From: Populus alba
Lineage: Eukaryota; Streptophyta; Magnoliopsida; Malpighiales; Salicaceae
Direction of reading: 5' to 3'
Length of the DNA stretch: 64,000 nt
Assembly: GCF_005239225.2 (NCBI RefSeq)
Contig: NC_133293.1
Span: forward strand, 868,001-932,000
Position numbers and translations under genes: made by a program. Each line of letters opens with the position of its first letter. The stretch's first letter is position 1. The notes beneath the pieces were generated by a model. The model was given only the letters and a program-made list of their open reading frames with translations. It did not search any database and had not been told where the DNA came from. Positions 17,314 through 43,945 of the stretch are shown here, one piece after another.

Positions 17314-20300
17314 CTAAAGGGAATATTTATTCTTACCACAAATTATTACTTCGCGAGGTTTTTTTTGCATCAAATAAGCTTTCCACTGCGCAGTTGTAGA
17401 CGCTCTTATAAGACCATAATTGGGATGATAAGGAAGCAGACGATATGGCCGTGATGCAGGCATCACTCTATGATCTCTTCCCACTTCTAACTCTTTGATC
17501 ACATGAACTTCACATTCTGTCACATTAATGTCTTTTCTCCCCGAATTCAAGTGCAGTTCCAACTCCTCATCTCTTGACTCTATGTTGTTAATCTCCCGAT
17601 CCCACTCTGACCCTTCAAATGAATCTGTCTCTTCTACTATCACATGGATCCCACACTGTACCACTTTGCTTCCATCAATGGGCTGGCTCCCCAGATACAG
17701 TTCCAATTCCTCATCTCCACAGTATTCTTCCATTGCCATATCACTTATACTTATGTATCTTACCCATTTACGAGGGTAACTGCATCCTACTTCTAGTTCA
17801 TCTTCAAACAATTGAACACCGTTGTTTTTATTTTTTATAATAACCCGGTAACCGATGGTGTAATTCACAGTACTATGAACATCAAATGGAGAAACAACCC
17901 AAACAACCAAGCCTTGGAAAACTGGAGGTATATGAAATGATAATGAACATCCTTCTCCACGGTAGCTTAACCAATTTGGCATTGGCATGTTACCAGGAAA
18001 GGAGTCAATAAAATACCCATAATCACCATTGCATGATGCCTGTATATATATATATTGATTTCAAGAAATGCTGAAATTTTAGAAACTAATTGATTAATGT
18101 GTATATTTGTGTGCTGGAGAGACAGAGATAGTACCTCAGCAAGACTCTTCAGGAAATTATTTGATGAATCACTGGGGAAATCAACGTCAATAGACCAGTA
18201 ATTATTACTTGGACCTTCGATGCCCTGAATCTCTTCTAACATATAACATTTATTGAGATGCATAGATGGTGAGTGTTTTGACTGGATTGGAATTCTTACA
18301 CTTTTCATTGAACTGCAACGAAAGGCATTCAAACAGTGTAAATTTGAGGGAAGATCTGAGATTGATACAAGCTTGATGCATTCCTCAACACTCAAAATCG
18401 AAAGCTTGGGAAGGAAGCCGATCCCGGCAGGCAGGCTAGAGAAATTGTTTTGTGATAGATCCAATTCTTTTAGAGAGGACAAACCCCTGAAATCAACACA
18501 GTTAGTTGTACGATCAGACAAACCACTATTAGAAAACTTAAGACATTTCATTGATCTCCATTCAAAAGATGTTGGCAGCAAACGTTTCCAATTTAAAACA
18601 GTACTTGCTATGATCGAAGATGAAACTGGTAGAGGCCAGGATGTAGACGACGGTGAAAGCCATGATGAAATTTGGGAAACCGAGGATGTAGGTGATGGTG
18701 AGTCCCGACAGAAACTGTATCCACACAATGATAACTTTCTGACATACTTTAAATGTACAAATGAAGGTAGAAGTTTATTTTTAATTCCATCTGCTAGCAG
18801 CTCAGTTAAGGATTCCATATCACCCATGCATTCTGGCAACTTCTCAAGTTGTGAATATCCAGAAATATTCAAACGTTTAAGAGACTTTACATCACCAATG
18901 CTTTCGGGAAGAATCTTTAGGCTCCGACATCTCTTTAGATTCAAGAAAATGAGGCTCTTCAAATTTCCAACAGATTGATGCACATCAACTAAACTCGAGC
19001 AACCTTCCAACCTTAGTTTCTGTAGACTTGAACTATGTAAGTTTGGTGTTTTAACTAGGAATTGAGAATGACTGAGATTAAAGATTTTCAGCTTGTTGAG
19101 AATCTGTCAAAATAGAGAGAAAAACAATGAAAAGTAATCATATAAAGTCATAACATGTAAATATTATATTTACTGGAGAAATTTGGTGGATTGTAGTTTG
19201 TTTCGCACCTTTTCTCCTTTCCATAATTCTCTGAGGTTACTGTATTGCATATCAAGAACAACAAGATTGTCCAAAGTAAAATCAAATGGCAAATATTGCA
19301 AAGGACATTCAAACCAACAAATCCACATCAACACTTTAGAAAGTAGTTTGAAGGATCCGGTGAGATGTACCCCATTGATCTGTAGTAAATTTAAGCATCT
19401 CATTTTTGCAAATGATCCTGTGTTTAATGATTTAGCTTCTGATGCTCTCACATCCAGTGCAAGACCCTCTACAACTTCCGTACCCTAGAAAAAAAAACAA
19501 TACAACTTTCATATCATTATTTTTAATAAGCTTGACAAGAAAATATGCATGACTATGCTTTCGTGTATGCATTGAGCTCTTACCTTTTGCTGGTCAAGTA
19601 CATTCCATGCATCCTCTTGATTCCAAATTCTGTTCCTTTCTCCAGGTTGTTTCGGTGACTTTTCACGAATGATCTCCCTTCCCATGTCTCGTAATAGATC
19701 ATGCATGGTTATCTTTCCAATGGCAGTAACTTTAATCAGAGACCTTTCACTGAGAGTTCCCAAATCAACTTCTGGATCGTAACCACAACGGGCTTCTAGC
19801 ACTTTTTCAACGTATTCTTTCTTTCTACCAATAAAGAAGCATGCAATATCAAGGAAGGCATTTTGCAGTTCATCATCGTCCAGTCCATCAAAACTTATTC
19901 TAAGCTTTCCTTGAATATCGCGGTTTGGAATTCTTCTCAACTTGTCAATTACAGATTTCCATCTGTCTTTGTTTTTCCCGGACAAACAAGCTCCTATAAC
20001 CTCAAGAGCTAAAGGAAGTCCTCCACAGTAATCAACTGCATACTTCGAAAGCTCAATATAGTCTTCTGCTGGCTTGGTGTCCTTAAAGGCATGCCAGCTG
20101 AAAAGCTGAAAGGACTCGTCTGGTTTCAATTCTTCGATCCGATATGTTTGATCTGCTTTAAGTAGAAAACTTGAATCTCTTGTTGTTATAATTACTCTAC
20201 TTCCGGGACCAAACCAGCTTCGCTCTCCCATCAAAGCATTTAGCTGGTCAAGATGAGACACATCATCAGCAACAACAAGAACTCTTTTGCGACAAAGCCG

Positions 20301-21313
20301 TTCTTTGATCAGAACCATTCCTCTATCAACATTGCTGATGTTAGCAGCATCTTGTTTTAGAATATCATGAAGAAGTTGCTTTTGTAAAAGAGCGAGACCA
20401 TTAAATTGTCTTGATGTTTCATTGATATTCGAAAGAAAACAGCTTCCCTCGAATCCAGAGCAGAGATGATTAAATACAACTTTTGCTATAGTTGTCTTTC
20501 CTATTCCTGGCATCCCATGTATGCCCACAATGCGTACATCATCTGTTGCAGTACTTAGGAAGTCAAAAATATTGCGAGCAAGCGGATCAATACGTACTAG
20601 GAGCTTAGGAATATTTAAGTGCTTGGAATCTAATTTATTCAACACATCCTTGATAATCTCTTGGATAAATTTTGCTTCATGCCTGTTCATAGACAAAGGA
20701 AAGTCATTTGATAGCAAGTTAATTAAATATGCTCAAAACAATATTTTATTGTTTAACTTTGAAAAATCAAATGTGTAATGACTCCATAAATGGCAGCAAG
20801 TGAATCTTAGAAAGAAAAGGCATACCCATTTTCCATATCATTGAGATTCCATCCAGAAAGATTTCCCGCATCCTCAAGAGCTTTTCTCCACTCCTTCACC
20901 TTTTCTTTATAACGTTCTTCATGTTTATCAAATGCTTTTGAAAAACTGTCAGTCTGCTTTCTCACATCTGAAGGATCAATGTCATAGAATATAGGAAGAG
21001 CAATCTGACCGGTTTTCCTATTTTTGCACTCAAGAATCTCTACAAGCTCATTAAGACACCATCTATAAGAAGCATATCCCTTTGAAAAGACAACTATAGA
21101 TATCTTTGATTCTTGAATTGCCTTGAGGAGATGATCGGAGATTTCTTCTCCTCTAGGAAGTTCATTATCATCTCGAAAAGTGTGGATTCCTGCTTGGACT
21201 AAGGCTGTATATAGATGATCTGTAAATGTCTTGCGAGTATCTTCTCCTCTAAAACTCAAAAAGACATCATAGGCCCCTTCTGTTCTAGATTTAGAAGACT
21301 CTGGCTCTGTCAT
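17314..21313 (-). CDS. TIR-NBS-LRR immune receptor, five exons, about 1,185 aa
   Basis: Exons on the minus strand: 21313-20826, 20682-19584, 19484-19209, 19103-18135, 18039-17314. All introns are GT-AG and the phases join without a stop. TIR domain (residues about 14-150): YDVFLSFRGEDTR, BB loop RDDNELPRGEEI, and CLNEL with Glu89, the NADase catalytic position known in plant TIRs. NB-ARC: P-loop GMPGIGKTT (219-227), kinase-2 VLVVADDV (about 297-304), RNBS-B GSRVIITTR, GLPLAL (384-389), FLDIACFF and MHDLL (489-493). Exon 4 holds the leucine-rich repeats (SLKELDLSQNNF, LPKLSILSVEEC). Exon 5 is the post-LRR jelly-roll-like domain starting near PGNMPMPNW. Such receptors sense pathogen effectors in the cell and signal through TIR NADase products. 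All key motifs are present, so it is likely functional. A donor-like site at 17336-17335 near the stop leaves room for an extra 3' exon. Confidence 0.93.
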
Positions 21314-22298
21314 GGCAGCTGCAGAAATTAAGGCACAATTAATTAGCAATGGAGCAATTGCAGAAGGTATCTACTCTCTTGCAAATACTAGCAAGGGGTG
21401 CATGTGAAGTGATCATCAAAGATAATACAATAGCTTAAGCTAAATAACGAGAGAGCATAAAAAAATAGCAACTGACAAATAGTTTCATCTATAATTAAGT
21501 TTACGTGATACCGACAATTGAAAGTTATTCATATTTGGCTAACTAGCAACACATCACAGGCAGAAAGTCTACGAACATGAAAAAGATAATGGAAACTAAC
21601 TAACTGTGATGGGATGATTTGACAATAATCTTGTACTAGAAGACATAAACTGATCAATAATGATCTATCTGAACATAAAGCTTTCAAATTATTGCTATCA
21701 GTGAATTCATGAAATCAAAACAAGAAAAAAGCATAGAAGAGTTAGTTATACCTATATAGAAGGAAAAGGGTTGGTTGGATTCCACCACCTATGAAATTGC
21801 AGTTCTCGGAGAGAAAGGTTAGCTGAAGAATCAACTAAGGGATATGCTTTCGTGCAAATTCTTAGCAAGTCAGCCAGTCAACTAATTAAGGAATATTACC
21901 CTCAGAACATGGAAATGAAACTAACTGTAAGAAAAAACTCTGTAGCCATTTTGTTTTGGAGACAGTGAAGAAGAGAGAAAGTGCTTTGAAAGTTCTTGAA
22001 TGAAGATGAAATGAAATTGGAAAGATTGACGGTACAAGAAATATAAAGAAAAATCCCACAATGGGAGTGAGAATATAAAATTACTCTGCAGTGATGGGCC
22101 CATCTGCTAAAGCAGTTGATCCACTCCTAGAAAGCAACTGGCTGGCCAACACCTGCTTCCCCATCAAAAATACGTTGACTCAAATGAAGACTTATATATA
22201 TATATATATATATCAAATTTAAATCTTGTCATTATCAATTTTAACAACTTGCTGCATTAAAAAAAAAAAAAAAGAACGAAGACTTGGCAGTGCACATA
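21314..22298 (-). promoter_or_regulatory. Upstream region of the TIR-NBS-LRR gene
   Basis: No other gene is seen. A W-box core TTGACT lies on the minus strand at 21881-21876 and another on the plus strand near 22,174. WRKY factors bind such sites, but single copies are weak evidence. Transcription start and any leader intron cannot be placed. Confidence 0.35.
22193..22213 (+). repeat. TA microsatellite
   Basis: About ten tandem TA units. Confidence 0.9.
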
Positions 22299-23177: not shown

Positions 23178-24445
23178 ATTATCAGAGCATATGGTTTGAA
23201 GTGGTGTTTGATTTTTTGCTCAAAAATGAAAGTTGTCAAAATAATGTTTTGACCATACCACTGTCTAGAGGAGGAAGAGACGAAGCCACTGGTGAAAACG
23301 GCGTCAAAATCGAACGTCGGACATGGCCACACTCTCCATCACTCTCCAGCAAGGCGTCTGCCCACGTGCGCAGACGCGCCCCACGTGTGCCACGCGTCTT
23401 CTTCACCCGGATGGGTTGACTCGACCCGAATACCAGTTGACCCGACCCATGTGACTGACTCGGATAAGGATGACATCAGTATGACATAAAAGTGACATCA
23501 TCATGAATAGTAGACATGAGCATGCAAAAGGGTCACGTCAGCCTGATGTAACGATGACATCAGCATGCAATTGACCAGTCAACATACATGTCAACATATA
23601 TTCGGTGATTGTGATTTCTCGAGGGGATGAAGACCCTGATAATGGAAGAGAAATACAACAAGGGGATAAAGATTGGCACCCTATTTTGACTTGGATAGGT
23701 GTTGTGACAGGATGAGCTGCTGTCAAACATAAGCAAGGAATATGGAGAAATCTGGAGAACAATATTGCACGAGGGCACATAGAGATTGTGCAGGAGTACC
23801 CGTAGGATCCTAACAAGGTATTGTATTGAGACAACAGGTGCAAGGAGAAGAAGAGTTCCCAGATGAAGCTCAGAGCAGAGACTATATACAATATGAAGTC
23901 TCTTGTGCTCTTGATGAAGACAACATGCGAGGACCTTTCCAATGCATGCAAGGATGGAAAGATGAGCTGTTGCAGAGGCACCTAATTGAGGGGGTGCAAA
24001 CGCCTGTGATAAAAGGCGATCGCCTATGAAAGGTGAAGACACTAAAGAGAATTGGTGTAGGTGGAGCTATCAAACAGAAAGGCATAAAAGCTCCAAATAT
24101 AGAATCGAGGTGGAGGATTGCGAGGAGTATACCACAACTTTCTCTTTCTATGTAGTTAGTGGCAATAATCTCTCCCAAGTCCACATGGTGGTAGAGAATC
24201 TTGGAGCCACTGAAGCATCCTAGCTGAAGGAGGATGCTTGCCTATGAAAGGCAAAGACACCACAAGAGAAGGTGTGAGGGCCATGATAAGAGCCCCAGTT
24301 CAGACCGTCCCATGACAACGGGCGAAGACACCTTATGGAAGGTGTGAGGGCCATGATAGGAGCCCCAGTTCAGAACGCCCCAAAGCCAATGTGATGGCTA
24401 GATATGAGTGGACAAGTGTATAGCCAATGAAGTGGCTATGATGAG
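23178..24445 (+). other. Left interior of LARD-1, non-coding
   Basis: No retroelement protein is recognised. It holds two CACGTG boxes (near 23,353 and 23,373) and several TGACATCA or TCACGTCA-like boxes between 23,468 and 23,566, the core type bound by plant bZIP factors. At about 24,250-24,375 a roughly 70-bp unit with GGTGTGAGGGCCATGATA is present twice. Several short frames in this part are not convincing genes. Confidence 0.6.
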
Positions 24446-26281
24446 TGACACGACCAAAAGATTGATGTCTTCTCCCAAGTGCAGGAGTGTCGAAGTAATA
24501 AATAACCCGGCAAGACCGGGGTCGAACCACAGAGAGGTTAATTGTATAAATTATAAATAACAAGACAACAACAACAACAACAACAACAACAATAATAACA
24601 ACAACAACAACAACAACAATAATACTCAGTACGTGGCGTTGTTATACCTAAGAATGATCTAAAAGAACGGGTCACAGGTTTCCAGCCTATATACTGATTT
24701 TATGATAATAATAGTAATAATAATAATAGTAATATTAATAGTAGTAATAATAATAATAGTAGTAGTAGTATTAGTAGTAGTAGTAGTAGTATTAGTAGTA
24801 GTAGTAGTAGTAATAATAGTAATAATAATAATAATAAAAAGAAGAGGAGGAAGAAATTAATGAGAACTTTGAGATGGAAGATTAATGTAAGGATTAAACA
24901 ATGATAAAAAACAAATGTCAAGGTTAGAGGATCCACTAATGGTGTTTCAAACAAGTATAGTATAAACTCTTATTACTCAACTGGAAACCACACACAAAGG
25001 AGGTTCCAATCACATGATTTCTCATTAATAGCTCATTATAAATTATTAACATGATCATATTAATTATCTTAATTACATAACACCAAACTTTTAAATATTG
25101 TCAGGAATTCATGATATTAACTGATGTTAACAACAAATCAAGTTTCTTTCATAGCCAAGTGTAGGTAATACGATACTGTTGGGCTATGAGAGTGCCAAGC
25201 ATTTGTTGTACCAAGTGTTATACAACACAAATCTAGATTAACCATTTAACAAGCAAGGTATTAAGAATTAGTAAGATAAAAAGATAAGACATGTTAATAT
25301 TAAACATTAAGATCCATGTTGAGTTTACACTATATTTATTCTTACACCATTAGTGTAACCTTTTCACCTTGACATAATAAACTTAGCTAAACATAATGAA
25401 GAAGAGAAACATAAATAAACAAAACAAGAACATAAAGAAAATACAAGTTAACTAAGTAAAGGAAAGGAAATGAAAAGCATAAACAAGATATTAATGAAAG
25501 CAAAACTTAAAAATTACAAAAAAAATATAAAGAGAGAAATAGAGAGCATGAGTTTGATCTGAACAACCAAGCCACCAAATACATGGCAAATGCCTCCTTT
25601 TATAAGCCAAAATTCGGAATTATTGATTTGATGACTAATTGTTGAGTGGGTGGCCAACTTTTGACTTGGTAAAAATCCTTATCTTCTTGTCTGAATAAAA
25701 CCAAAATGCTACCATCCGAACTGGGTCCACTAGAAAACATAAAAGTTGTAGAAAATTGACTCAGCTTTACATGAAAAAAAAATGGAGGTCATTTGGAGTT
25801 CTAGAACTCCAGATATGGGCCAAACACTGAACAGTGTTCGGGCTGCAGAACAGATTCAGACTTCTCCGTTGTTGCTATAATTTGGACTGGAAAACGACCT
25901 TCTTAGATCTTGATGAAAACATAAAAGTTATAGGCCTATGTCTTACTGAATCTGTGTAAAACTTTGAGGTCATTTGGACATCTAGAACTCAAGATATGAC
26001 CTAATTACCAAGCAGTGTTCCAGTTTGGACTGCACCAACATCTCTTTTCTAAGTTTCACCCTCTCTTTATCTTCGCAAATTTCAGTAGTTGAATTCATCA
26101 ATCAATCCTTTGATTTATGTGATAGGCCTACATTTAAGATGAACATTTACCATATATTAGGGCATTTTATAGTATTAGACTTGTTATTATAAAACATGCT
26201 TTAGTTAAGGAGTTATTGATACTTTAAGTGCAAAATGATGATATAAAACCCTGATAAATATACACTTTTAAGTACTAATCA
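24446..26281 (-). repeat. 3' LTR of Gypsy-1
   Basis: 1,836 bp, very similar to 35,195-37,028. It contains a CAA-type microsatellite (about 24,565-24,620) and an ATA/GTA-type microsatellite (about 24,705-24,836). These create a spurious leucine-rich frame on the minus strand. Confidence 0.92.
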
Positions 26282-27485
26282 CACCCCCCAACCAGCTTAT
26301 TACTAGTCCCTAGTAATCAAAGCATTAAAATAGAAAAACAATTTGCAAATTCCATAAAGCAAGGCATTCATCATTCAACTTACTTTAATCTATCCAGATA
26401 AACAAACTCTCATTAAATTCATATATCTGCTCAATACCTCTTAAACAAGATATTACTAAACCTTTCTTTTGTGCTCAAAATATCAACATATAGTTATGAG
26501 GCTTTACTTGGAAGAAAAACAAATTTTTGCTCTAATGTTTAAGGTTAACTTCCTTGGGTTAGGATTTTTATCTTTTTTTTTTGTTTTTTTGTTTTTTTTT
26601 TATATATACATATAACTTAAAACACAATGCATCTTTAACCCATGTAACGAGCTTTCAGCTAATGACTCCTAGACCAGTTGATCTTAGGGCATTAGGTGTT
26701 GAGACACCCCTACGAGCTAAGTAACTCGGGTTGCAGATACTGATATGTAGATAGTGCAATGTTTGATTCCCTTAAGCTTTTCTCCTTAACCCATGTAACA
26801 AGCGTTGGGCCAATAGCTCCCAAGTCAGTTGACTTTAGGGTATTAAGTGTTAAAACACCCCTTCGGGCTTAATTCCTTAGGTTAGGGAGGCTACGAAACC
26901 AAACTTATCTACCTTTTTATTATCATTATTTTTTTTTGTTTTTTTATTTTGCAAATTATATACTATCCCTTTCCCTTAATTGTTACCTATAACAAAAGAA
27001 CATAAATAATGTAATAATCCAATGTGCAACCCACAATCATATGTTAAAGTGTGTGTGAAAATGAAGATTTAAGAATACTTGTTAAATGAGCATATGAGCA
27101 GAATCAAGTACTAGCAATACGAGAGTTTGTAAACCTGAATATTTCAAGAAGTATTATGATAGACCTTGTTAAGAATGTTTACTAAGATGCGTCTCAAGAG
27201 TCACTTTAACAAAAGAACTCATTTTACTCTGTCATCCTAGTAACAACAGTTTTGCAAATAGTTTATCAAATAGAAAACATGGTTTTTTTAAAAAAATATT
27301 TTTAAATATCAACTACTATCCTTTCCCCCCAAACAAAATGAGACATTATCCTCAATGTCCTAAGGTAGAAAGCTAGAGTATAGAAGACATCACCTGAAAT
27401 AGCGAACACTAACAAACCTGAAACACACTTAAACAAATATAAGAAACAACAAAACATAATAATAAAAACAAAAGACACAAAGTTT
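26282..27485 (-). other. 3' interior of Gypsy-1, with polypurine tract and a duplicated unit
   Basis: The tract next to the LTR lies at about 26,282-26,293. Further in, a unit starting CCCATGTAAC occurs twice (about 26,638-26,735 and 26,792-26,890), about 150 bp apart. Near 27,330-27,365 the minus strand reads GGACATTGAGGATAATGTC and then a G-rich run, a pattern I know from the post-integrase region of Athila/Tat elements. No protein frame is seen. Confidence 0.6.
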
Positions 27486-28138
27486 TTACAAACTAAGGCT
27501 CAAATCCAATCTAAGGTTTTTACGGCTTTCCTTAGTTGACCAATTTATGCGACTTATGGAGGGATCAATTACAGGGATGAAAGATTGTAGTTGGTCAATC
27601 AATTGTTCAGCAGTAGTAGCAGAGATTATGATTTGTCGTGCCAAAGATGTTAGAAATTCTTGTTCCACAGCATGATCAAGAAAAGACAACAACTTATCAT
27701 AAAAACCATTAACATTTAACAGACCTATGGGTTTATAGTGAATGTGCAGTTGGGCCTAAGAGGAAATATGAAAGATCTCTTCCAATGTGCCCAGACCACC
27801 TGGTAAGGCAATGAAGGCGTCAGCATGGTTAAACATTGTATTCATTCGATCAGACATTGTGGGGACCTATAATTCCTCTCCAATTGTTTTTTCAATGATG
27901 TCCCCTTGTGCTAAAGCTTTGGGGGCAACCCCCAAAACTTGACTACCACCTAAAATGCAGCTTTTGATACTCCCCCTATTAACCCAAGGCTGCCTCCTCC
28001 ATACACTAAATGAATCTTTCGCTCAGCTAGTACCTGACCAAGATGATTTGCTGATTCTAAAAACTCTTTTTCTTTCCCAGGACTGGATCCACCAAAAACA
28101 CAAATATTGTTTATCTGATGACTTGAGGAACCTGCCAT
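27486..28138 (-). pseudogene. LOG-like: Intron-free LONELY GUY (LOG) cytokinin phosphoribohydrolase copy inside Gypsy-1
   Basis: LOG enzymes release active cytokinin from cytokinin riboside 5'-monophosphate. The frame starts MAGSSSHQ at 28138. It shows CVFGGSSPGKEKEF, LVYGGGSLGLIGG, then in another frame MFNHADAFIALPGG with GLGTLEE (the family's PGGxGTxxE signature, near 27,785-27,810), then KPIGLLNVNGFYDKLLSFLD and a family-like C-terminus. The total of about 653 bp equals a full-length LOG of about 215 residues with no intron, although plant LOG genes normally have several. Damage: one frameshift near 27,947, a stop at 27,867-27,869, and a stop at 27,756-27,758 where LOGs usually have Trp. 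Element sequence lies on both sides in the same strand. It is a retroposed or transduced host gene, now probably inactive. Confidence 0.85.
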
Positions 28139-28487
28139 TTCTACACACTTCTGTATTTGTTGAATGTATGGGTTGAGTAGAAATAAAGAGAAGGAAGAGA
28201 AGAATTTATAGATGAGAAATTGAAAATGCAATCATATCACCTATATGTAGGCTAGCCGTAGTCTCACTCTCTCTCTCTATTTATTTATTTTGAAAAAGCA
28301 CGTGTATGTACAAGTAGTTGTGATTGTGTCTCACATCTTTCCTTGGTTTTATGTCTAAGAACGGCTTAAACACCCTCTATGGGTCGGGGATAGGCTTCCC
28401 ATCCAGTTTTCTTAAAAACTGGCAAACAGGGTCTTTTTTAGTCAGATTCCTAAGACTAAGTCGAGCATGTTCTTTATGAAAATGGAG
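28139..28487 (-). other. Linker between integrase remnant and LOG copy
   Basis: The minus strand continues the frame after the integrase zinc finger, past a stop, with HFHKEHARLSLRNL and FLRKLDGKPIPDP. I cannot assign this. It is not the integrase catalytic core. It may belong to another captured sequence or to the LOG transcript leader near 28,140-28,230. Confidence 0.4.
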
Positions 28488-29566
28488 TCATAAGTCATGA
28501 AATGCACAATGCACATCTCCACTATGATGAGACTTAAGAGTCAATAAAAGATTATCTAAAGACTCTCTATGTTTTGAAATAAATCCTACCTTTTGACAAT
28601 TTTCACAGGTTTTGCAGAATGCATATGAGTCCTTGAACATGGTGGGCCAGTAAAATCCACTTTGTAAGATTTTTGCAATCGTCTTTTTTGACGAGAAATG
28701 ATCCCCGCATGCTTCAAAGTGACAAAATTCAATGACACTACTTACCTCATTGTCGGGAATGCATCTTTGAAATATTTGATCAGGACAATATTTGAATAAG
28801 TAAGGGTCATCCCAATAAAGGTTTTGCACGTCGCTCAAAAACTTTCTTTTATCTTGGTTATCCAAATGAGCTGGAAAAAATCCTGAAGCAAGAAAATTGT
28901 TATTTTTAGCAAACCAAGGCATTGAACTAAGAGAAAGTAAAGATTCATTAGGAAAGTAATCATTGATTGGTGTGATGTTGGATGTCGAATCTATTGTCAA
29001 CTTTGATAAATGATCCGCGACAACATTTTCGGTGCCTTTTTCATCATCGATTGCTTCCTGTTTGGTCATGGCATGAGGAAATGGAAGTGCTGGTAGGAAA
29101 TCAGTATTTTCTTTGCAATATTCAGATTCAACCCCTTCCTTACTCTCAGAGATTGACTCATCATCTTTCTTACAAGGTTCAAGAATAGGTTTTTCAATAA
29201 CCTTACCACTGCGAAGAGTGATGTCTGATTTAACTTGATCCTTGTATTGACTTCTGGAACTACTTGCATTTACATTGTATTTCTCCTTTGGATTTTGTTG
29301 TGGTTGAGATGGAAACTTACCGTTCTCTTGAAAACTAAGAGCAGATGTTAACTTTGCAAGAGTATCTTTAAAACCTGTCATGCTTTGAGCAAGTTGAGTG
29401 TTGATTATCTCTTGCTTTTCAATGAATGAATGCAATGTTTCCTCAAGATTTCTTCTAGAAGGTGGAGCATAAGGAGGTACATATCCATGAAAATTTTCGA
29501 AATTATGGTGTGCTTGAAACGATGGTTGTGAAGTTTGTGCATTTTTGTTATCATCTTTCTCACAAG
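28488..29566 (-). pseudogene. Gypsy-1 fused remnant: gag C-terminus joined to RNase H end and integrase zinc finger
   Basis: A 315-codon frame runs from 29435 to 28488. Its first part is gag C-terminus (LTSALSFQENGKF, ITLRSGKVIEKP). From about codon 135 it reads TENVVADHLSKL, the end of a gypsy RNase H, then the H-H-C-C zinc finger of integrase (HFEACGDH with CKTCENCQ). Protease, RT and most of RNase H (well over 1 kb) are gone without breaking the frame. Upstream, gag sequence continues to the LINE junction near 29,566. The fused protein could not replicate the element. Confidence 0.85.
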
Positions 29567-32500
29567 TTTCTGCTCAAGTTGTGCATGTTCTCATTACTTG
29601 TTTGGAGAGTCATTATAGTTTCACAACTTCTTTTGTTTATGGTTTCAACACTATTTCTCTTCGGAGATCCCTATGGGATGACCTGTGGAGGTGGAGTCCT
29701 AACTCTCCTTGGCTGGTTCTTGGTGACTTTAATTTGGTGCTTTCTCAGGATGATAAACACAATGGTGCTCCTGTGACCAACTACGAAGTTACAAACTTTA
29801 GGGAATGTTGCTCAGACCTGGGTCTTGCTGACCTAAACTCAACTGGCTGCATTTACACTTGGTCAAATGGACATGTCTGGAGCAAAATTGATAGAGTTAT
29901 GGTCAACACTCATTGGTCCACTTTGCAACAGCAGGCTCTTGTGCATTTTGATAATCCTGGGGCTTTCTTGGACCATTCCCCATCCTTTATTCATCTAGGT
30001 TCTCGGCAGCCTTGCAGGAACAGGAATTTCAAATTTTTTAACATGTGGGCTGATCACCCTAAATTCTTTGAGTTGATTGAGCAATGCTGGAATACTCCTG
30101 TCTATGGTTCAAACATGTTCACTTTGTGTCGGAAGCTGAAACTGTTGAAAAGGCCATTGAAGGAGCTCAACAAGCTTCATTACAGTCACATCTCACAACG
30201 TGTTACCATGGCTGAGGAAGAACTGGATAGCCTTCAATCTCTTTTGAATCAAGACTGTGATAACATCCATCTTCAGTCTCAGGATAAGCATCTTAGATCA
30301 CAACTTGTGCACCTCAAGTCAGCGGAGCAGAGTTACTATGGGCAGAAACTCAAATTCACTTTCTTAAAGGAAGTGGACAAAGGCACCCGTTTCTTCCATG
30401 CTTTGCTGAGCCAAAAGCATAGGAGAAATCATATTCCAGCAATCCAGGTCCCCTCTGGCATGTATACTTCTTCGGTGGATGAGGTGGGGGATGAGTTCGT
30501 CCGATTCTTTAAAAATCTCCTTGGCTCTACAAAACAAACCATTCCCATCAATGAGGATGTCATCCATTGTGGCCCCTATCTTGATGCAGCTTCTCATGAT
30601 TCTCTTTTGGGACCAGTAACAAATGACCTTATCCAGCAAACGCTTTTCAGCATTAGCAATGAGAAGGCCCCAGGGCCAGATGGTTACTCTTCCCTATTCT
30701 TCAAGAAAGCATGGAGTATAGTGGGTGGTGATTTCTGTGCTGCAGTCAAGGATTTCTTTGCATCGGGACATTTGCTCAAACAAGTCAACCATTCTGTCAT
30801 TGCCCTTATCCCAAAATCATCCAATGCAAACTTAGCTGCTGACTTTCGGTTGATATCTTGTTGCAATGTCATTTATAAGGTTATTTCCAAGATTCTTGCG
30901 GGGAGAATGGCGCATGCTCTTCAGGATATCATCAGCCCTGCCCAGAATGCTTTTCTGGGAGGAAGAAATATGGCCGACAATATTCACCTCATGCAGGAGC
31001 TTTTACGTCACTATGGGAGGAAGAGGGCGTCCCCTAGATGTATTATTAAAGATTGATTTCAGGAAAGCTTTTGACTCTGTTCAGTGGTCTTTTCTGCTAT
31101 AAGTTTTGCTGTCCTTGGGTTTCCCTCCTCGGTTTGTCAGGCTGATTATGCAATGTGTTGAGACTGCTTCTTTTTCTGTTTCTGTTAATGGGAATCTATA
31201 TGGTTTCTTCAAGGGGCAATGTGGTGTTCGTCAAGGAGATCCTCTTTCTCCATATCTTTTTATTGCTTGTATGGAATATTTTTCCAGGATGATTATCCAG
31301 AGTACGCAGCACGTTGATTTCAATTTCCACCCCAAGTGTTGTGCTCTAGGGGTCAGCCACTTGGCTTTTGCAGATGATGTCCTACTACTCTGCCGGTGTG
31401 ATACGCAGTCAGTTAGCATATTAAACTAGCAGCTTCTTTCTTTTGGTCGGATATCAGGCCTTGATATTAATGCTGGGAAGTCCTCTATATAGTTTGGTGG
31501 AGTGGGGGGAAGTGTTAAGCTTGCCATCCTGCACCTTACTGGCTTTATAGAAGGGAGTTTTCCTTTCCATTATCTAGGGGTCCCTCTAAGCCCTCATAGA
31601 TTATTGGCTAGTCAATTCTCCCCTCTCCTGCAAAAATTGGAATCTTCTATTCAGAGTTGGATGGTGAAACACCTCTCCTATGCGGGTCGCCTTGAGCTCA
31701 TCAGATCAGTTCTGCATGGCATGGTTCAATTCTGGCTCAGTATCTTTCCGATTCCAGGTATAGTTATTACCAAGATTAATAGCATCTGTCGAAGCTTTCT
31801 TTGGTCGAGTAAATCTGGTTCCCCTCACTCTGCCCTTGTCTCCTGGGAAAAAGTATGTCTTCCCAAGCAGGAAGGAGGCCTGGCTCTCCTAGATATCAGG
31901 GCAAGAAACAAAAGTTTTTTAGCAAAACAGCTATGGAACTTTCACCTTAAATCTGACTCTTTGTGGATTCGTTGGGTGGCACATTATTACCTTCCTCATA
32001 CAACAATCTGGGTTGTGGGTTTAAGGAATGTTTCATCGCCTTTATGGAAGTCCATTTGCACTCTCAAAAACCAGCTGGTGGAGCAATGCGGAGGCATACC
32101 TGATGCAATCACTACTCTTGAAAGTTGGCATAGTGGTACGGGGTCATTTCTTGTTAACGCTCATGATTTCTTTAAGATTAAAGGGGAGAGTGTCCAGTGG
32201 ACTAGGGTGGTTTGGGAGGAATGGTCCCTGCCTTGATCCAGATTTATTCTATGGCTCGCTACCCTTGGAAGACTCCGCACAAGGGATCGGCTCAGCTACC
32301 TTCCCACAGAAACTGTTTGTTCCTTGTGCAGCAGAGAAGACGAGACACACGCCCATCTTTTTTTCAATTGCAACTGGACTTCTTTACTATGGAATCAAGC
32401 TAAGAGATGGCTAAGAATCAATCGGCCTATGTCTACACTTTCCAGTGCCATTAGAGGTCTGAATGGGAGGAGTAAAGAGCTGAAGCTAAAAATGAGGCGT

Positions 32501-33989
32501 GTATCCCTTGCCCTACTTGTGTATTTGATTTGGAATGAAAGAGACAACCGCATCTTTGCACAGAAGTCATCCTCTGTAGATGCCACATTCTGAAGATTCC
32601 AAATTCTGTTTTACACAGTTTTGCTTTTCCATGAAAAAGACCACTCTTTTTACCATGTTGCTGCTTAACAAAGATGCTAGTTCTCTTTGATTGCTACAAC
32701 TGGTTTTGTAGTTGGGTTTTCCTCTGCTCAGCTTCTGTTTTCAGAATGATAGAGCCCCAGTCTTCATGTTTGGTTTTGTCAATGATAGAGCCCCAGTCTT
32801 CATGTTTGGTTTTGTTGATCCTGTCTCCTGCAAGTTCCAATTTCAGTTTCCTTGGTATTTCATGCAAATCGATTTCATCCCGATACGTGACTGCTTGGGG
32901 AAGCTTTGGTCATGCATTTTTTACATGCTGCTTTTAATGCCAGGTCCCTTGTCTCTGCATGAATAGCCATTACCCACTGTTATTGGCAGCTTGTGGTTTA
33001 ATTTGCATGGCTGTCGTTTTTGTATCTCTGCATGGATGGTAGGGCTGTCTGCTAGTGAATTAAATTGCATTGATATGAGGCTGGGTTGTCTGCTATTGAA
33101 TTAATTTCCGTTGTTGACTGGGTTGGCTGCTAGTAATTCAATTTGCATGGATGGCTTGGTTGTTTCTACGTGCTTTAATTTGAATGGTCCCCGTTTCTGC
33201 TTCTGAGTTTTCCACTACGTCCCTGCATGGAGGAGCTGTTTGTGTCTGTCTTCTCGGCTGCTAGTGGATGCTGTGTAACTGTCTCTCCTTGTCGGCTTGC
33301 GGCTTGTTGTCATGATTTTTGGCTGAGCCCCTCTCATCTCTGCATGGATGTTGCTAGACGTGCATGTTTCCTTACTTCTGCATGGTTTGGGAATGCATGG
33401 GCTTTTGCTGATCTTTTTCTCTAGTTTTATATGCTCATTTATCTGCATGAATGAGGTGATGCCCCCTGGTATTGGTTCTAAGCCTATTAATGTGTTTTGG
33501 CTGGGCTGTCTTGTCTCAGCCTCGGCAAGGAGATTCTGTTTCATTTTTGCTTGGATGGCTGGTTGCTACACTTCTCCTGCTGCATGGAAGAGCCTCCGTC
33601 TCTGCATGGAGGAGTCATTGTCTGCTGCAGCCGTTAGCTTGTGTGGTTGCTGCTGTAACTGCTTCATTTTCTTGCTGGCTTGCGGGTTGCTCTCGTGGTT
33701 TGATTATTAAATCTGTTTGAGCTATCTGGTCATATTTAACTGTTGTAAATTTTGCAGGATGTCTTTTTGTCCTGTCTTTTGCGTTGTGTTAGGATAGGAA
33801 CCTTGTATATGCGGTTCCTCTCATAACCTTTGTCTTCATTTTTTGGTTTCTATAGTGGCTTTCTGTATAGCTCATTAAGGGAGTCTGTTCCCTTTTTGTC
33901 TACCTTTGTTTCTGTACTCGCTGGCTCTCCAGTATTGTATATTTTTTGATCTTTTTATACACTTACATTTTGATAAAAAAAATAAAAAA
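29567..33989 (+). mobile_element. L1-type plant LINE, 5'-truncated, inserted in Gypsy-1 gag
   Basis: Coding runs 29,567-32,593 with damage. It has the C-terminal part of the endonuclease (LVLGDFN, FLDHSP), then reverse transcriptase (EKAPGPDGYSSLFFKKAW, SVIALIPKS, IDFRKAFDSVQW, GVRQGDPLSPYLF, catalytic FADDVLL near 31,370) and the zf-RVT zinc knuckle (CSREDETHAHLFFNC). A frameshift lies near 31,020 and stops near 31,100, 31,428, 31,490 and 32,234. ORF1 and the endonuclease N-terminus are missing. The 3' untranslated part, 32,594-33,973, is long and ends in an A-rich tail (33,974-33,989). It lies opposite to gag and interrupts it. Confidence 0.92.
32594..33973 (+). other. 3' untranslated region of the LINE
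   Basis: About 1.4 kb without convincing frames. It has a perfect or near-perfect 36-bp tandem duplication (32,745-32,780 and 32,781-32,816) and many copies of the heptamer TGCATGG between 32,950 and 33,610. Confidence 0.7.
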
Positions 33990-34989
33990 TTGGGTGATTT
34001 CTCCAACCAAGATTGTATGTTTGCGAGTATGGGTTATGATTGGGCCTTTGGAAACTGTTTAAAGCATGGGCTTGTTCATGGAGGCATTCCTTGAAAGAAG
34101 GCAAAGTTGGACAATCATTGGTTGCATGTTCATTTGTTTCACAGATTTGACACACAATGTCTTGAACATATTTTAATTGACCACTCCTTTTCAATTCTAG
34201 TGCCTCGACTTTTCTAGCTAAAGATGCAGTGGATTGGAGGTCATGATCTTCCCTAAGGTTATACATACCTCCATTAGATGTATGAGGTTGAGTTTTACTC
34301 GGTGCCTCATAAGTGCCCGTAGTGTCCCAATTTTGTGCATTTTTAGCTAGCAAATCTAGGTACTCCATTGCTTCATCAGGGTCTTTATCTTCAAAAGTTC
34401 TATTGCACATCAATTCCACCATTTGCCTCTCTTTAGGTGTTAATCCTTTATAAAAATGTTAAACCAATCTCCATGTTTCAAAACCATGATGAGGGCAAGT
34501 ATTAATCAAGTCCCGATACCTATCCCAACATTGGTAAAATGTTTCTCCTGGTTTTTGAGTGAAAGTGGTGATTTGTCTTTTGAAAGAGTTTGTTCTGTGA
34601 AATGAAAAAAACTTCTTTAAAAATTATTGTTGCATTTCATCCCAAGCACGAATGGATCTTGGTCTCAAAATTTGTAGCCATGTTTTAGCTTTATCTTTTA
34701 AAGAAAAAGGAAAAAGCTTTAATCTGATGGTGTTCATGCTACAATTTGAGTCATTATAAGTGTTACAAACTTCCTCAAATTCTCTCAAATGCAAGTATGG
34801 ATTTTCTAGATCTAAGCCATGAAAAGAAGGTAAAAGTTGAATAATGTCTGGCTTAAAATTAAAATGAGATGCATCAGGAGGAAAAAATATACATGATCGC
34901 GTAATTGTTCTTGTTGGATTCATGTAGTCTCTAAGTGTTCTAACCCGATTATTCTCATTATAAAGCGATTGATTATCCTCTTCGGCCAT
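33990..34989 (-). pseudogene. Gypsy-1 gag, N-terminal two thirds
   Basis: It starts MAEEDNQS at 34989. Retrotransposon gag domain: LPSFHGLDLENPYLHLREFE, KLFPFSLKDKAKTWL, then CWDRYRDLINTCPHHGFE. Stops interrupt the frame after DEMQQ (near 34,623) and near 34,457. A zinc-knuckle-like CQICETNEHATNDCP follows in the next frame segment. The LINE cuts it at 33,989, and the same protein resumes below 29,566. Gag would form the particle that packages element RNA. Confidence 0.88.
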
Positions 34990-35171
34990 GTTTTCTAAAA
35001 AAGATGAGTATACTTTACAAAGTTTATCATTTAATGTACGTGACCAAACTCTCATGCACGTGTAGAAAGAGAAGAAAAGGAAGAAGAAAAGAAAAACAAA
35101 AAGAAACAAAACAAAAGAAACAAAGTTAGAAAAAATAAAATAAATACTATAATTTATACAAGAATTTACCT

Positions 35172-35189
35172 CCCAGGCAACGGCACCAA
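35172..35189 (-). promoter_or_regulatory. Primer-binding site of Gypsy-1 (tRNA-Asp type)
   Basis: TGGTGCCGTTGCCTGGGA on the minus strand, five bases inside the 5' LTR. It differs at two positions from the complement of the plant tRNA-Asp 3' end. Confidence 0.75.
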
Positions 35190-35194
35190 AAACT

Positions 35195-35508
35195 TGACAC
35201 GACCAAAAGATTGATGTCTTCTCCCAAGTGCAGGAGTGTCGAAGTAATAAATAACCCGGCAAGACCGGGGTCGAACCACAAAGAGGTTAATTGTATAAAT
35301 TATAAATAACAAGACAACAACAACAAGAACAATAACAACAACAACAACAATAATAATAAGAACAATAATAATAATAATACTCAGTACGTGGCGTTGTTAT
35401 ACCTGAGAATGATCTAAAAGATCGGGTCATAGGTTTCCAGCCTATATACTGATTTTATGATAATAATAGTAATAATAATAATAGTAATATTAATAGTAGT
35501 AATAATAA

Positions 35509-35564
<56 letters not shown>

Positions 35565-37028
35565 ATAGTAATAACAATAATAATAAAAAGAAGAGGAGGA
35601 AGAAATTAATGAGAACTTTGAGATGGAAGATTAATGTAAGGATTAAACAATGATAAAAACAAATGTCAAGGTTAGAGGATCCACTAATGGTATTTCAAAC
35701 AAGTATAGTATAAACTCTTATTACTCAACTGGAAACCACACACGAAGAAGGTTCCAATCGGATGATTTCTCATTAATAGCTCATTATAAATTATTAACAT
35801 AATCATATTAATTATCTTAACTACATAACACCAAAATTTTAAATATTGTCAGGAATTCATGATCTTAACTGATGTTAATAACAAATCAAGTTCCTTTCAT
35901 AGCCAGATGTAGGTAATACCATACTGTTGGGCTATGAGAGTGCCAAGCATTTGCTGTACCAAGTGTTATACAACACAAATCTAGATTAACCATTTAACAA
36001 GCAAGGTATTAAGAATTTGTAAGATAAAAAGATAAGACATGTTAATATTAAACATTAAGATCCATGTTGAGTTTACACTATATTTATTCTTACACCATTA
36101 GTGTAACCTTTTCACCTTGACATAATAAACTTAGCTAAACATAATGAAGAAGAGAAACATAAATAAACAAAACAAGAACATAAAGAAAATACAAGTTAAC
36201 TAAGTAAAGGAAAGGAAATGAAAAGCATAAACAAGATATTAATGAAAGCAAAACTTAAAAATTACAAAAAAAATATAAAGAGAGAAATAAAGAGCATGAG
36301 TTTGATCTGAACAACCAAGCCACCAAATACATGGCAAATGCCTCCTTTTATAAGCCAAAATTCGGAATTATTGATTTGATGACTAATTGTTGAGTGGGTG
36401 GCCAATTTTTGACTTGGTGAAAATCCTTATCTTCTTGTCTGAATAAAACAAAAATGCTACCATCCGAACTGGGTCCACTGGAAAACATGAAAGTTGTAGA
36501 ACATTGACTCAGCTTTCCATGAAAAAAAAATGGAGGTCATTTGGAGTTCTAGAACTCCAGATATGGGCCAAACACTGAACAGTGTTCGGGCTGTAGAACA
36601 GATTCGGACTTCTCCGTTGTTGCTATAATTTGGACTTGAAAACGGCCTTCTTAGATCTTAATGAAAACATGAAAGTTATAGGCCTATGTCTTACTGAATC
36701 TGTGTAAAAATTTGAGGTCATTTGGACATCTAGAACTCAAGATATGACCTAATTACTAAACAGTGTTCCAGTTTGGACTGTACCAACATCTCTTTTCTAA
36801 GTTTCACCCTCTCTTTATCTTCGCAAATTTCAGTAGTTGAATTCATCAATCAATCCTTTGGTTTATGTGATAGGCCTACATTTAAGATGAACATTTACCA
36901 TATATTAGGGCATTTTATAGTATTAGACTTGTTATTATAAAACATGCTTTAGTTAAGGAGTTATTGATACTTTAAATGCAAAATGATGATATAAAACCCT
37001 GATAAATATGCGCTTTTAAGTACTAATC
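35195..37028 (-). repeat. 5' LTR of Gypsy-1
   Basis: 1,834 bp, TGATTAGTACTT to TCGTGTCA on the minus strand, matching 24,446-26,281 including both microsatellites. Confidence 0.92.
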
Positions 37029-37091
37029 ACACCCCCAACCAGCTTATTACTAGTCCCTAGTAATCAAAGCATTAAAATAGAAAAATAATTT
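37029..37091 (-). repeat. Extra copy of the Gypsy-1 3' interior end, upstream of its 5' LTR
   Basis: 63 bp that match 26,282-26,344, the polypurine tract and adjoining interior. They should not lie upstream of a 5' LTR. This suggests a former tandem element or recombination during integration. Confidence 0.75.
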
Positions 37092-39013: not shown

Positions 39014-40723
39014 TGATTAGTACTTAAAAGTGCATGTTTATTAAGGTTTTATATCATCATTTTGCACTTGAAGTATCAATAACTCCTTAACTAAAACATG
39101 TTTTATAATAACAAGTGTGATACTATAAAATGCCTTAATATATGGTAAATGTTCATCTTAAATGCAGGCTTATCACATAAGTCAAAGGATTGATTGATGA
39201 ATTCAACTATTGAAATTTTGAAGATAAAGAAGGGTGAAGCTTAAAAAAGAGATGTTGGTGCAGTCCAAACTGGAACACTATTCGGTAATTGGATCATATC
39301 TGGAGCTCTAGATCTCTGATTTAGGTCCATTTTATATGGATGGAAAGCTAAGACATAGGCCTACAACTTTCATGCGGAACCCAAGAATTATAAAGGCCTT
39401 TTTGAAGTCCAAATTGTTGGAACAACGAAGAAGTCCTAAGCTGTCTTGCAGCCAAGACACTATTTAGTGTTCAACCCATATCTTGAGTTCTAGAAGTCCA
39501 AATGACCTCATCTTTTTTTTGTTGGAAAGCTGAGACAATTTCCTAGAACATTATTGAGAATTCTGGGCAAATTATGATGTTAGCAATGACGTCTTGTTCA
39601 AACAAGAAGATAAGGATTATCATCAATTAGTCAACAAATCAATAGTTCCAAATTTTAGCCTATAAAAGGAGGCACTTACCATGTATTGAGGCATCTTGGT
39701 TTTCAGATCAAGATCATGCTCTTGCTTTCTCTCTTTGTATTGCTCATGTTTTGCTTTCATTAATATCAAGTTTATGCACTTCATTTCCTTTCCTTTATTT
39801 AGTTAACTTCTTTCTCATTTATGTTCTTGTCTTGTTCATTTATGTTTCTTCCTTTCATTATGTTTAGCTAAGTTAATTATGTCAAGGTGAAAAGGGTACA
39901 CTAATGGTGTAAGAACAAGTATAATATAAACTTAACATGGACCTTAATGTTGGATACTAACATTTTTATATTTGTTATCTTGTTCACTTTCAATACTTTG
40001 CTTGTTAAATGGTTAATCTAGATTTATGTTGTATAACACTTGGTACAACAAATACTTGGTACTTTCATAGCCCATACTGTATGGTATAACCGACACCTGA
40101 GCTATGAAAGGAACTTGATTTGTTGTTAACATAAAGTTATAATCATGAATGCCCGACAACATTTACAAGCATTAACATTATTCGAATAAGATAACTAATG
40201 TAATTATGTTAACAATTTATAATCTGATTGGAACCTCCTTTGTGTGTGGTTTCCAATTGAATAATAAAAGTTTATACTATACTTGTTTGAAATACCATTA
40301 GTGGATCCTCTAACCTTGACATTTGTTGTTGTCATTGTTTAATCCTTACATTAATCTTTCATCTCAAAGTTCTCATTAATTTCTTCATCTTCTTCTATTA
40401 CTACTACTACTACTATTATTATTTTTTATTATTATTATTATTGTTGTTGTTGTTATTTACATTCTGTAATATATCCCTTTGATCTTTTCATAAACTCAGT
40501 ATATAGGCTGGAAACCTGTGACCCGATCTTTTGGATCATTCTCAGGTGTAACAACGCCACGCACTGAGTATTATTGTTGTTGTTGTTGTTGTTATTGTTG
40601 TTGTTTTGTTATTTATAATTTATACAATTAACCTCTCTGTGGTTCGACCCCGGTCTTACCGGGTTATTTATTACTTCGACACTCCTGCACTTGGGAGAAG
40701 ACATCAATCTTTTGGTCGTGTCA
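39014..40723 (+). repeat. Solo LTR of the Gypsy-1 family inside Copia-3 gag
   Basis: 1,710 bp from TGATTAGTACTT to TCGTGTCA, in opposite orientation to Gypsy-1 and clearly the same family. The five bases AGCTC lie directly before (39,009-39,013) and after (40,724-40,728). Recombination between two LTRs of a former full element explains the lone LTR. Confidence 0.93.
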
Positions 40724-43700: not shown

Positions 43701-43945
43701 GTCAACAAGGTCTGTCAGTTTATGCATGCTCCTACTGAGAGTCATCGAGCTGCCATTAAATGTATGTTACATTACTTGAAAGGTACGTCATCTTATAGCA
43801 TCCACCTTAATTACTTGTGGCTCCTCTTTATCACTTTATGGGTTCACTGATGCTGATTGGGCGGGGAGTGTTGATGATCAAAAATCTACTGGTGGATATA
43901 ATGTTTGCCAAAGAGTTTTTTTTGGCCCCTCCCTCAAAGAAGAGT
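40729..43945 (+). pseudogene. Copia-3 polyprotein: gag end, protease, integrase, RT, RNase H start (broken)
   Basis: Gag end with basic Gly/Arg/Asn-rich part (40,729-41,010). Protease near 41,040 reads DTYVDQHV where an active enzyme has DTGA, so the active site is lost. The integrase zinc finger is WHRRLDHPS with CQVCPLEKS. The integrase core is damaged. Post-integrase CVFLGYSSSHLG is near 42,170. RT lies in the frame 42,825-43,850 with RYKARLVARGFTQQKGIDY, DTSLF and catalytic YADDILL (near 43,355). A double frameshift garbles about 43,080-43,240. RNase H stops near 43,920. Confidence 0.88.

Follow-up and report, generated by a model that had tools for sequence, protein, structure and literature searches.

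A decayed LOG gene behind a virus-like ORF remnant in a high-copy, likely Athila-type retrotransposon family of Populus alba

LOG-type domains have already been described in gypsy retrotransposons of plants. The YgdH/LOG domain was reported in gypsy consensus sequences of Citrus sinensis, C. clementina and, with the filter switched off, P. trichocarpa, and this was presented as being in line with Steinbauerova et al. 2011 (PMC9289625). The presence of LOG in a gypsy element is therefore not new. The P. trichocarpa elements share the LOG-type domain, the gypsy type and the genus with the Populus alba family surveyed here and are very likely the same family; in the available part of that report they are documented by a domain match alone, whereas the partner gene, the selection, the phylogeny and the active-site change come from the present analysis. 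Orchid gypsy elements of the same report (PMC9289625) likewise form a Ty3/gypsy family with an additional ORF for an enzyme, but as far as the part available describes them the enzyme is a 2-ODD/AlkB m6A demethylase, the elements are Tat/Ogre relatives and Phalaenopsis was the only source in that screen. Comparable, too, are Athila elements in which an additional ORF follows pol and precedes the 3′ LTR (PMC6317226, PMC11728184); in the available parts of these sources such ORFs are env-like or Athila ORF-1, whereas the P. alba family has an ORF resembling viral nucleic-acid-binding proteins (NABP) together with LOG. In the literature searched, the virus-like companion, the link to Sapindaceae, the selection and the lysine change of the element LOG were not found, and none of the titles and abstract openings listed (2 of 2, 20 of 160 and 17 of 18) ties a carlavirus-type NABP to an LTR retrotransposon. 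A preliminary description of the present locus, made from the sequence alone, proposed that a gypsy element had acquired a cytokinin-activating (LOG) gene. The reading of LOG in a gypsy family is upheld here, as an idea already published for Citrus and P. trichocarpa; the capture by this particular element is not, and the nature of a “hormone gene” is putative.

The window, that is the whole stretch of 64,000 nucleotides that was analysed (contig C10, positions 868001-932000), belongs to the Populus alba assembly of 416 Mb in which the genome searches were done. It contains an Athila-like Ty3/gypsy element on the minus strand, with the following features.

35195..37091, minus strand: 5′ LTR; identity between the two LTRs 96.4% (1905 columns, K2P 0.0292)
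35171..35188, minus strand: probable primer-binding site adjoining the inner end of the 5′ LTR, read as TGGTGCCGTTGCCTGGGA
34624..34989, minus strand: N-terminal piece of gag; Pfam Retrotrans_gag 21.7 bits, just below the cut-off of 24.1
33955..34458, minus strand: second piece of gag; among the 20 loci L009-L028, tblastn finds homologues in 18 (not in L009 and L024); no Pfam match of its own
29518..33710, plus strand: nested LINE-like retrotransposon on the opposite strand; long plus-strand ORFs recognised by eye, breaking the gag/pol homology
28488..29573, minus strand: ORF with the C-terminal part of gag, the RNase H end and an integrase zinc-binding remnant; Pfam Integrase_H2C2 2.9e-12 and comparison by eye with the fuller copy L040
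28377..28566, minus strand: remnant of the C-terminal end of the virus-like NABP ORF, in a broken frame; identified by tblastn with the L005 NABP, the whole ORF being present in other copies
27486..28138, minus strand: LOG accessory gene, decayed by one frameshift and two in-frame stops
24446..26344, minus strand: 3′ LTR, from the LTR-LTR comparison

The primer-binding site presumably resembles the tRNA-Asp type of Athila elements, and the L040 ORF homologous to the N-terminal gag piece reaches 76.7 bits with Retrotrans_gag. The element in the window is without RT and without the integrase core; it is a dead copy of a pol-deleted type, in which both the NABP and the LOG frame have decayed since. 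Lacking both RT and this core, the type could have moved only with the help of fuller relatives. A clean target-site duplication of the window element was looked for and none was seen. LTR substitution rates used for dating range from 1.3e-8 down to 2.5e-9 per site per year, and on these the K2P distance gives, very roughly, an insertion age of about 1 to 6 million years. The element, its nested LINE and the outer flank (about 23659-33700) recur as locus L009, some 150-160 kb away on the same contig (96.7-98.2%). An independent insertion that happens to share the frameshift was ruled out for L009, because the alignment extends beyond the LTR and across the whole nested LINE; L009 is therefore a segmental duplicate.

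Some minor observations concern the same element. Both LTRs (25800-25956 and 36548-36704, plus strand) match the Rfam family RF04032 MIR2912 above the cut-off, and this microRNA family is probably the LTR itself. In the gag region, at 34481-34591 on the plus strand, snoR71 of Rfam is matched at a borderline score (41.1 bits against a cut-off of 40), and beside the element, at 39014-40723, stands another LTR-like copy of this family in inverted orientation.

The preliminary description had placed at 27486..28138 a full-length, intron-free LOG with its signature motifs, on the strand of gag, between integrase remnants and the 3′ end of the element, with one frameshift and two stops as the gross damage, and all of this was borne out. 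The homologue covers reference positions 1-654 without an intron, its frameshift is at codon 62 and its stops are at codons 91 and 128, the motifs GGGSLGLIGG, ALPGGLGTLEE and KPIGLLNVNGFY are read in its frames, and it is flanked by the integrase H2C2 remnant on one side and by the 3′ LTR on the other. The undamaged homologue L005 of the same genome matches Pfam PF03641 at E 2.4e-39, TIGR00730 at E 1.2e-50 (above the cut-off) and Arabidopsis LOG3 (2a33) at E 5.2e-59, so the identity as LOG is far beyond chance. Plant LOG genes had been said to contain introns normally; the three ordinary P. alba LOG loci that were fetched are all matched by tblastn in pieces, as exons, whereas the window LOG is not. 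Both stops are of the C>T/G>A type and stand at codons where other copies also have stops, and the frameshift is present in 2 of 43 aligned copies, namely the window and its duplicate L009. For these reasons the frame may well have been open when the element inserted, in agreement with the earlier suggestion that the copy was intact while the element was mobile.

The distribution of the family in the genome was surveyed with several queries. Two LOG searches gave 1191 (with LOG DNA) and 1248 first-look candidates (40 and 150 scored, respectively), the DNA just upstream of LOG gave 2845 (40 scored) and the LTR gave 4164 (40 scored); as only 40, 150 and 40 of the 1191, 1248 and 4164 were scored, these totals are indications and not counts. 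At least 150 LOG genes were matched in this genome, and the family has a high copy number. In the list of 150 scored places, which is ranked towards intact copies, every place is above the Pfam cut-off, 149 are free of stops within the match and 129 have an open frame of at least 216 aa. A second set of 20 loci was chosen by the flank (numbers 2-21 of the 40 scored places). In 18 of these, no more than about 20 bases separate the flank match from the start of LOG, the copy in L020 being truncated; the exceptions are L025, where LOG lies 2.3 kb further, and L023, which has no LOG. The position between pol and the 3′ LTR is thus fixed.

This result decides on a processed pseudogene, a cDNA made by a LINE that fell by chance into one element, which had been the reading to adopt if other members of the family were found to lack LOG and the copy to have its own target duplication and poly-A tail. 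The intron-free state of LOG and the LINE-like element within the same retrotransposon would suit such an origin; with LOG following the same flank in 18 of the 20 flank-chosen loci and tied to element genes in other plant genera, we regard it as extremely improbable. A pseudogene at a private site in one element is ruled out by the same position across the family.

The fuller element type is represented by L040, which lies upstream of the LOG of L007 and holds gag, RT, RNase H and integrase in front of NABP and LOG, with frames broken by single stops. The element of L004 is another deletion type. The RT motifs look Athila-like. Two LTRs, gag and a pol order of RT, RNase H and integrase (the order being that of L040) were found, as in Ty3/gypsy elements, and the Pfam scan of L040 matched one RNase H region only, before the integrase. 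This fits Athila, in which there is no additional RNase H (aRH), the aRH being a mark of the Tat clade (PMC6317226, in the part available). Of the earlier assignment to an Athila/Tat-type element, gypsy is retained, and the single RNase H region matched by Pfam agrees with Athila; the high-copy family is likely of the Athila type.

Between integrase and LOG, the fuller copies contain an ORF of 182 aa. In L004 it matches Viral_NABP (PF05515) with 30.2 bits (cut-off 23) and Carla_C4 (PF01623) with 25.7 bits (cut-off 20.9), and of the 28 members chosen for a scan, 27 match both profiles at E <= 0.01. NABP or its remnant is present by tblastn in all of L001-L028 and in the window. Homologues number 606 at E <= 0.001; a length of exactly 182 aa is shared by 40 of the 120 that were listed, some of these at 65-74% identity. 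The likeness to the NABPs of carlaviruses and related viruses lies in the matched region with its Cys residues and basic stretch, above both Pfam cut-offs; unlike these, the element ORF is 182 aa long, is conserved also in its C-terminal half, to which the Pfam match does not extend, and is encoded by a retrotransposon. A scan of viral contigs with NABP found no relative, a PDB profile search with it gave no match up to E 1, and its structure model (pLDDT 52) was too low for a fold search. The ORF resembles the nucleic-acid-binding proteins of plant RNA viruses and, with a poor model and no relative among the viral contigs, it is from sequence profiles that we infer a viral descent.

The association of NABP and LOG extends to other plants. 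In Acer yangbiense a single gene model (P0261) runs through NABP and then LOG; P0242 of Xanthoceras and P0289 and P0305 of Acer saccharum carry gag/protease-like sequence with LOG, as recognised by eye. The Xanthoceras NABP P0203 and LOG P0255 have adjacent locus tags (032187 and 032186), and for the LOG/NABP pairs P0275/P0181 and P0296/P0125 the longest contigs are equal in size (8723 and 4511, respectively). Proteins of Reevesia and Parasponia join the element-type LOG group by sequence alone. In a tree of 50 LOG proteins, 31 element-type sequences, labelled so by linkage to element genes or by likeness, form one group with a UFBoot of 95. The LOG of the L004 element is 47-56% identical to eight ordinary plant LOGs and 58-74% identical to element-type LOGs from other sources; among the latter, divergent plants have full-length frames (212-217 aa) that contain the catalytic motif, and a C-terminal tail of the KRKLDLTLRL type is common to many of them.

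These comparisons bear on the origin of the gene. If the conserved LOG frames were host genes captured recently in Populus, and their relatives in other plants separate events, the Populus element LOGs should stand with ordinary LOGs, and this topology is rejected (AU 7.6e-6), so that a fresh capture in Populus only is discarded. Intronless LOGs could arise repeatedly and the topologies with two captures are not rejected (AU 0.10 and 0.07); against this stand the common C-terminal tail and the common NABP neighbour, and separate recent captures appear improbable. The claim that the window element itself acquired a LOG mRNA copy is accordingly not sustained, as the gene is common to elements of Acer and Xanthoceras. 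The comparison with host LOGs proposed earlier for finding the parent was made, and a Populus-only capture of an ordinary LOG was the outcome it rejected. Three element-type LOGs (P0090, P0107 and P0270) are named LOGL10 in the records of P. trichocarpa and P. nigra; this should serve as a warning for annotation, since counts of the LOG family would be inflated.

After insertion a copy decays neutrally, and selection can act while the lineages are active. Changes found in one copy only (singletons) were therefore compared with changes shared by copies, as counts of nonsynonymous (N) and synonymous (S) changes and the ratios derived from them. Duplicate loci (L006, L037, L038, L039), host loci (L041-L043), L009, and codons that were interrupted by a gap or carried two or more changes, were dropped before the counts. 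The copies are unevenly sampled, being ranked by LOG, NABP or flank, and the statistics ignore their relatedness; on this basis the LOG of the 16 copies with a full-length NABP has 26 N and 35 S shared changes (61 changes, ratio 0.32, p 1.6e-5) and 36 N and 19 S singletons (ratio 0.82; Fisher 0.016 against shared). Shared variants thus have a deficit of amino-acid changes where NABP is full-length. For the LOG of the 26 copies that lack a full-length NABP, a set with the window copy but not L009, shared changes give 0.70 (p 0.052) and singletons 1.19 (Fisher 0.042), and 10 stop variants are shared. For NABP itself (20 copies, three of them partial) the shared changes are 11 N to 23 S (ratio 0.22, p 1.9e-5) and the singleton ratio is 1.28 (Fisher 9.6e-5).

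When C>T/G>A changes were excluded, the LOG of copies with a full-length NABP kept its shared ratio of 0.32 (p 0.0019) and lost the contrast with singletons (0.56; Fisher 0.31), the copies without it gave a shared ratio of 0.49 (p 0.023; Fisher 0.076), and NABP retained its contrast (Fisher 0.012). No shared stop is left after this exclusion, so the shared stops may be recurrent deamination; they were accordingly rejected as proof that a broken LOG was propagated. An older split of the LOG copies, by how the loci were chosen, gave shared ratios of 0.40 (22 copies, p 7.7e-6) and 0.79 (20 copies, p 0.3); since its “outside” half included copies of the window type, such as L029, the split by full-length NABP was used instead. 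In gag, variants in three or more flank-chosen copies have a ratio of 0.31 for the first piece (p 0.0041) and of 0.75 and 0.91 for two further pieces. The shared mutations suggest that purifying selection kept both LOG (about 0.3, in copies with a whole NABP) and NABP (about 0.2), and for this reason both likely helped the element.

LOG could instead be passive cargo, captured once or twice and hitch-hiking on an active family without benefit to the element. LOG is open over its whole length in only 3 of the 20 flank-chosen loci (L010, L024 and L025) and in only 1 of 10 loci chosen by NABP, and in two of the latter, L051 and L053, nearly all of LOG is deleted with the same breakpoints behind an intact NABP ORF. 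These two are a LOG-less sublineage that amplified, and LOG is dispensable for some amplification. Together with the LOG-less L023, the few whole-length open frames of the flank-chosen set and the weak constraint on LOG where NABP is not full-length, they agree with passive cargo, as does the fact that some captured genes of plant elements are fragments, the Bs1 element reportedly carrying such pieces. The shared ratio in copies with NABP and the full-length frames with the catalytic motif kept in divergent plants argue against it, and we consider passive cargo unlikely, though less so than separate recent captures in Populus. Our preferred reading, which we hold to be reasonably probable, is that the window LOG is a decayed intron-free gene at a fixed site between pol and the 3′ LTR, behind NABP or its remnant in a high-copy and likely Athila-type family, and that it likely served the mobile element.

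The possible function was considered from the active site. In a bacterial LOG, Arg99 and Glu122 are catalytic and Met96, Lys100 and Glu121 contact the adenine (PMC4979012, in the part available). The 31 element-type LOGs have the PGGxGTxxE motif with the catalytic residues (Arg99 in 30, Glu122 in all 31), and retain Glu121 in 30 and Met96 in 29; the adenine contacts are incomplete through Lys100, which is found in only 8 (otherwise Ile in 12, Met in 7 and Leu in 4) and in 18 of 18 ordinary LOGs. None of the 43 aligned P. alba copies has Lys100 (Leu in 31 and Met in 10 after Arg; the other two have Leu and Ile after a changed Arg codon), and His97 is also replaced in all 43. The MHERK motif is mostly retained in the Sapindaceae-type element LOGs. 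A model of the L004 LOG (pLDDT 85) has 2a33 as its nearest Foldseek match (E 1.9e-23). The element LOG is thus like the plant enzymes AtLOG3 (2a33) and AtLOG8 (1ydh) in fold, PGGxGTxxE motif and catalytic Arg and Glu, and unlike them in being intronless and carried by an element, in having mostly lost Lys100 and in its own C-terminal tail. From the retained catalytic residues and the predicted fold, the protein is a predicted nucleoside-5′-monophosphate phosphoribohydrolase; except in the Sapindaceae type, it is uncertain whether cytokinin nucleotides are among its substrates. With Lys100 in only 8 of 31, activation of cytokinin is putative; of the suggestion that the element could have spread a hormone gene, the LOG homology stands and the substrate-contacting Lys is replaced in every aligned P. 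alba copy.

It is accordingly possible, and to be taken seriously at somewhat less than an even chance, that the element LOG was selected in another capacity than as a cytokinin enzyme, acting on other nucleotides or as a binding protein. The replacement of Lys100 and His97 in all 43 P. alba copies with Arg99, Glu121 and Glu122 kept in nearly all, and the use of the LOG fold by other nucleotide-binding proteins, point in this direction, whereas the MHERK motif of the Sapindaceae type points away from it. On the reading preferred here, of a gene serving the element, LOG would be made from the element, probably via a spliced or separate message, and would change the nucleotide or cytokinin state locally, to the advantage of dividing cells. 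In the Sapindaceae type, with its mostly whole active site, a likely release of active cytokinin would favour dividing or meristematic cells, where new insertions are passed on; in the Populus type the lost Lys predicts an altered substrate range or a weaker cytokinin activation. NABP would bind the RNA of the element and, like related proteins of viruses, may dampen silencing.

We suggest, tentatively, that an old Ty3/gypsy lineage of plants, spread over several rosid families, may hold a two-gene cassette in the style of a virus, with an RNA-virus-type NABP and a host-derived, hormone-type enzyme, both under selection, by which silencing and cytokinin would be manipulated as by a plant virus. 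Should such a cassette function in the predicted way, a hormone-type enzyme under selection would stand beside a virus-type RNA-binding protein in plant retrotransposons, and the long-open role of Athila-like extra ORFs would become directly testable by a known enzyme assay.

Elsewhere in the window, ORFs resembling by eye a TIR-NB-LRR resistance gene lie at 17314-21370 on the minus strand, and copia-like pol ORFs, also recognised by eye and mutually inverted, lie at 41284-43850 and 55311-57498.
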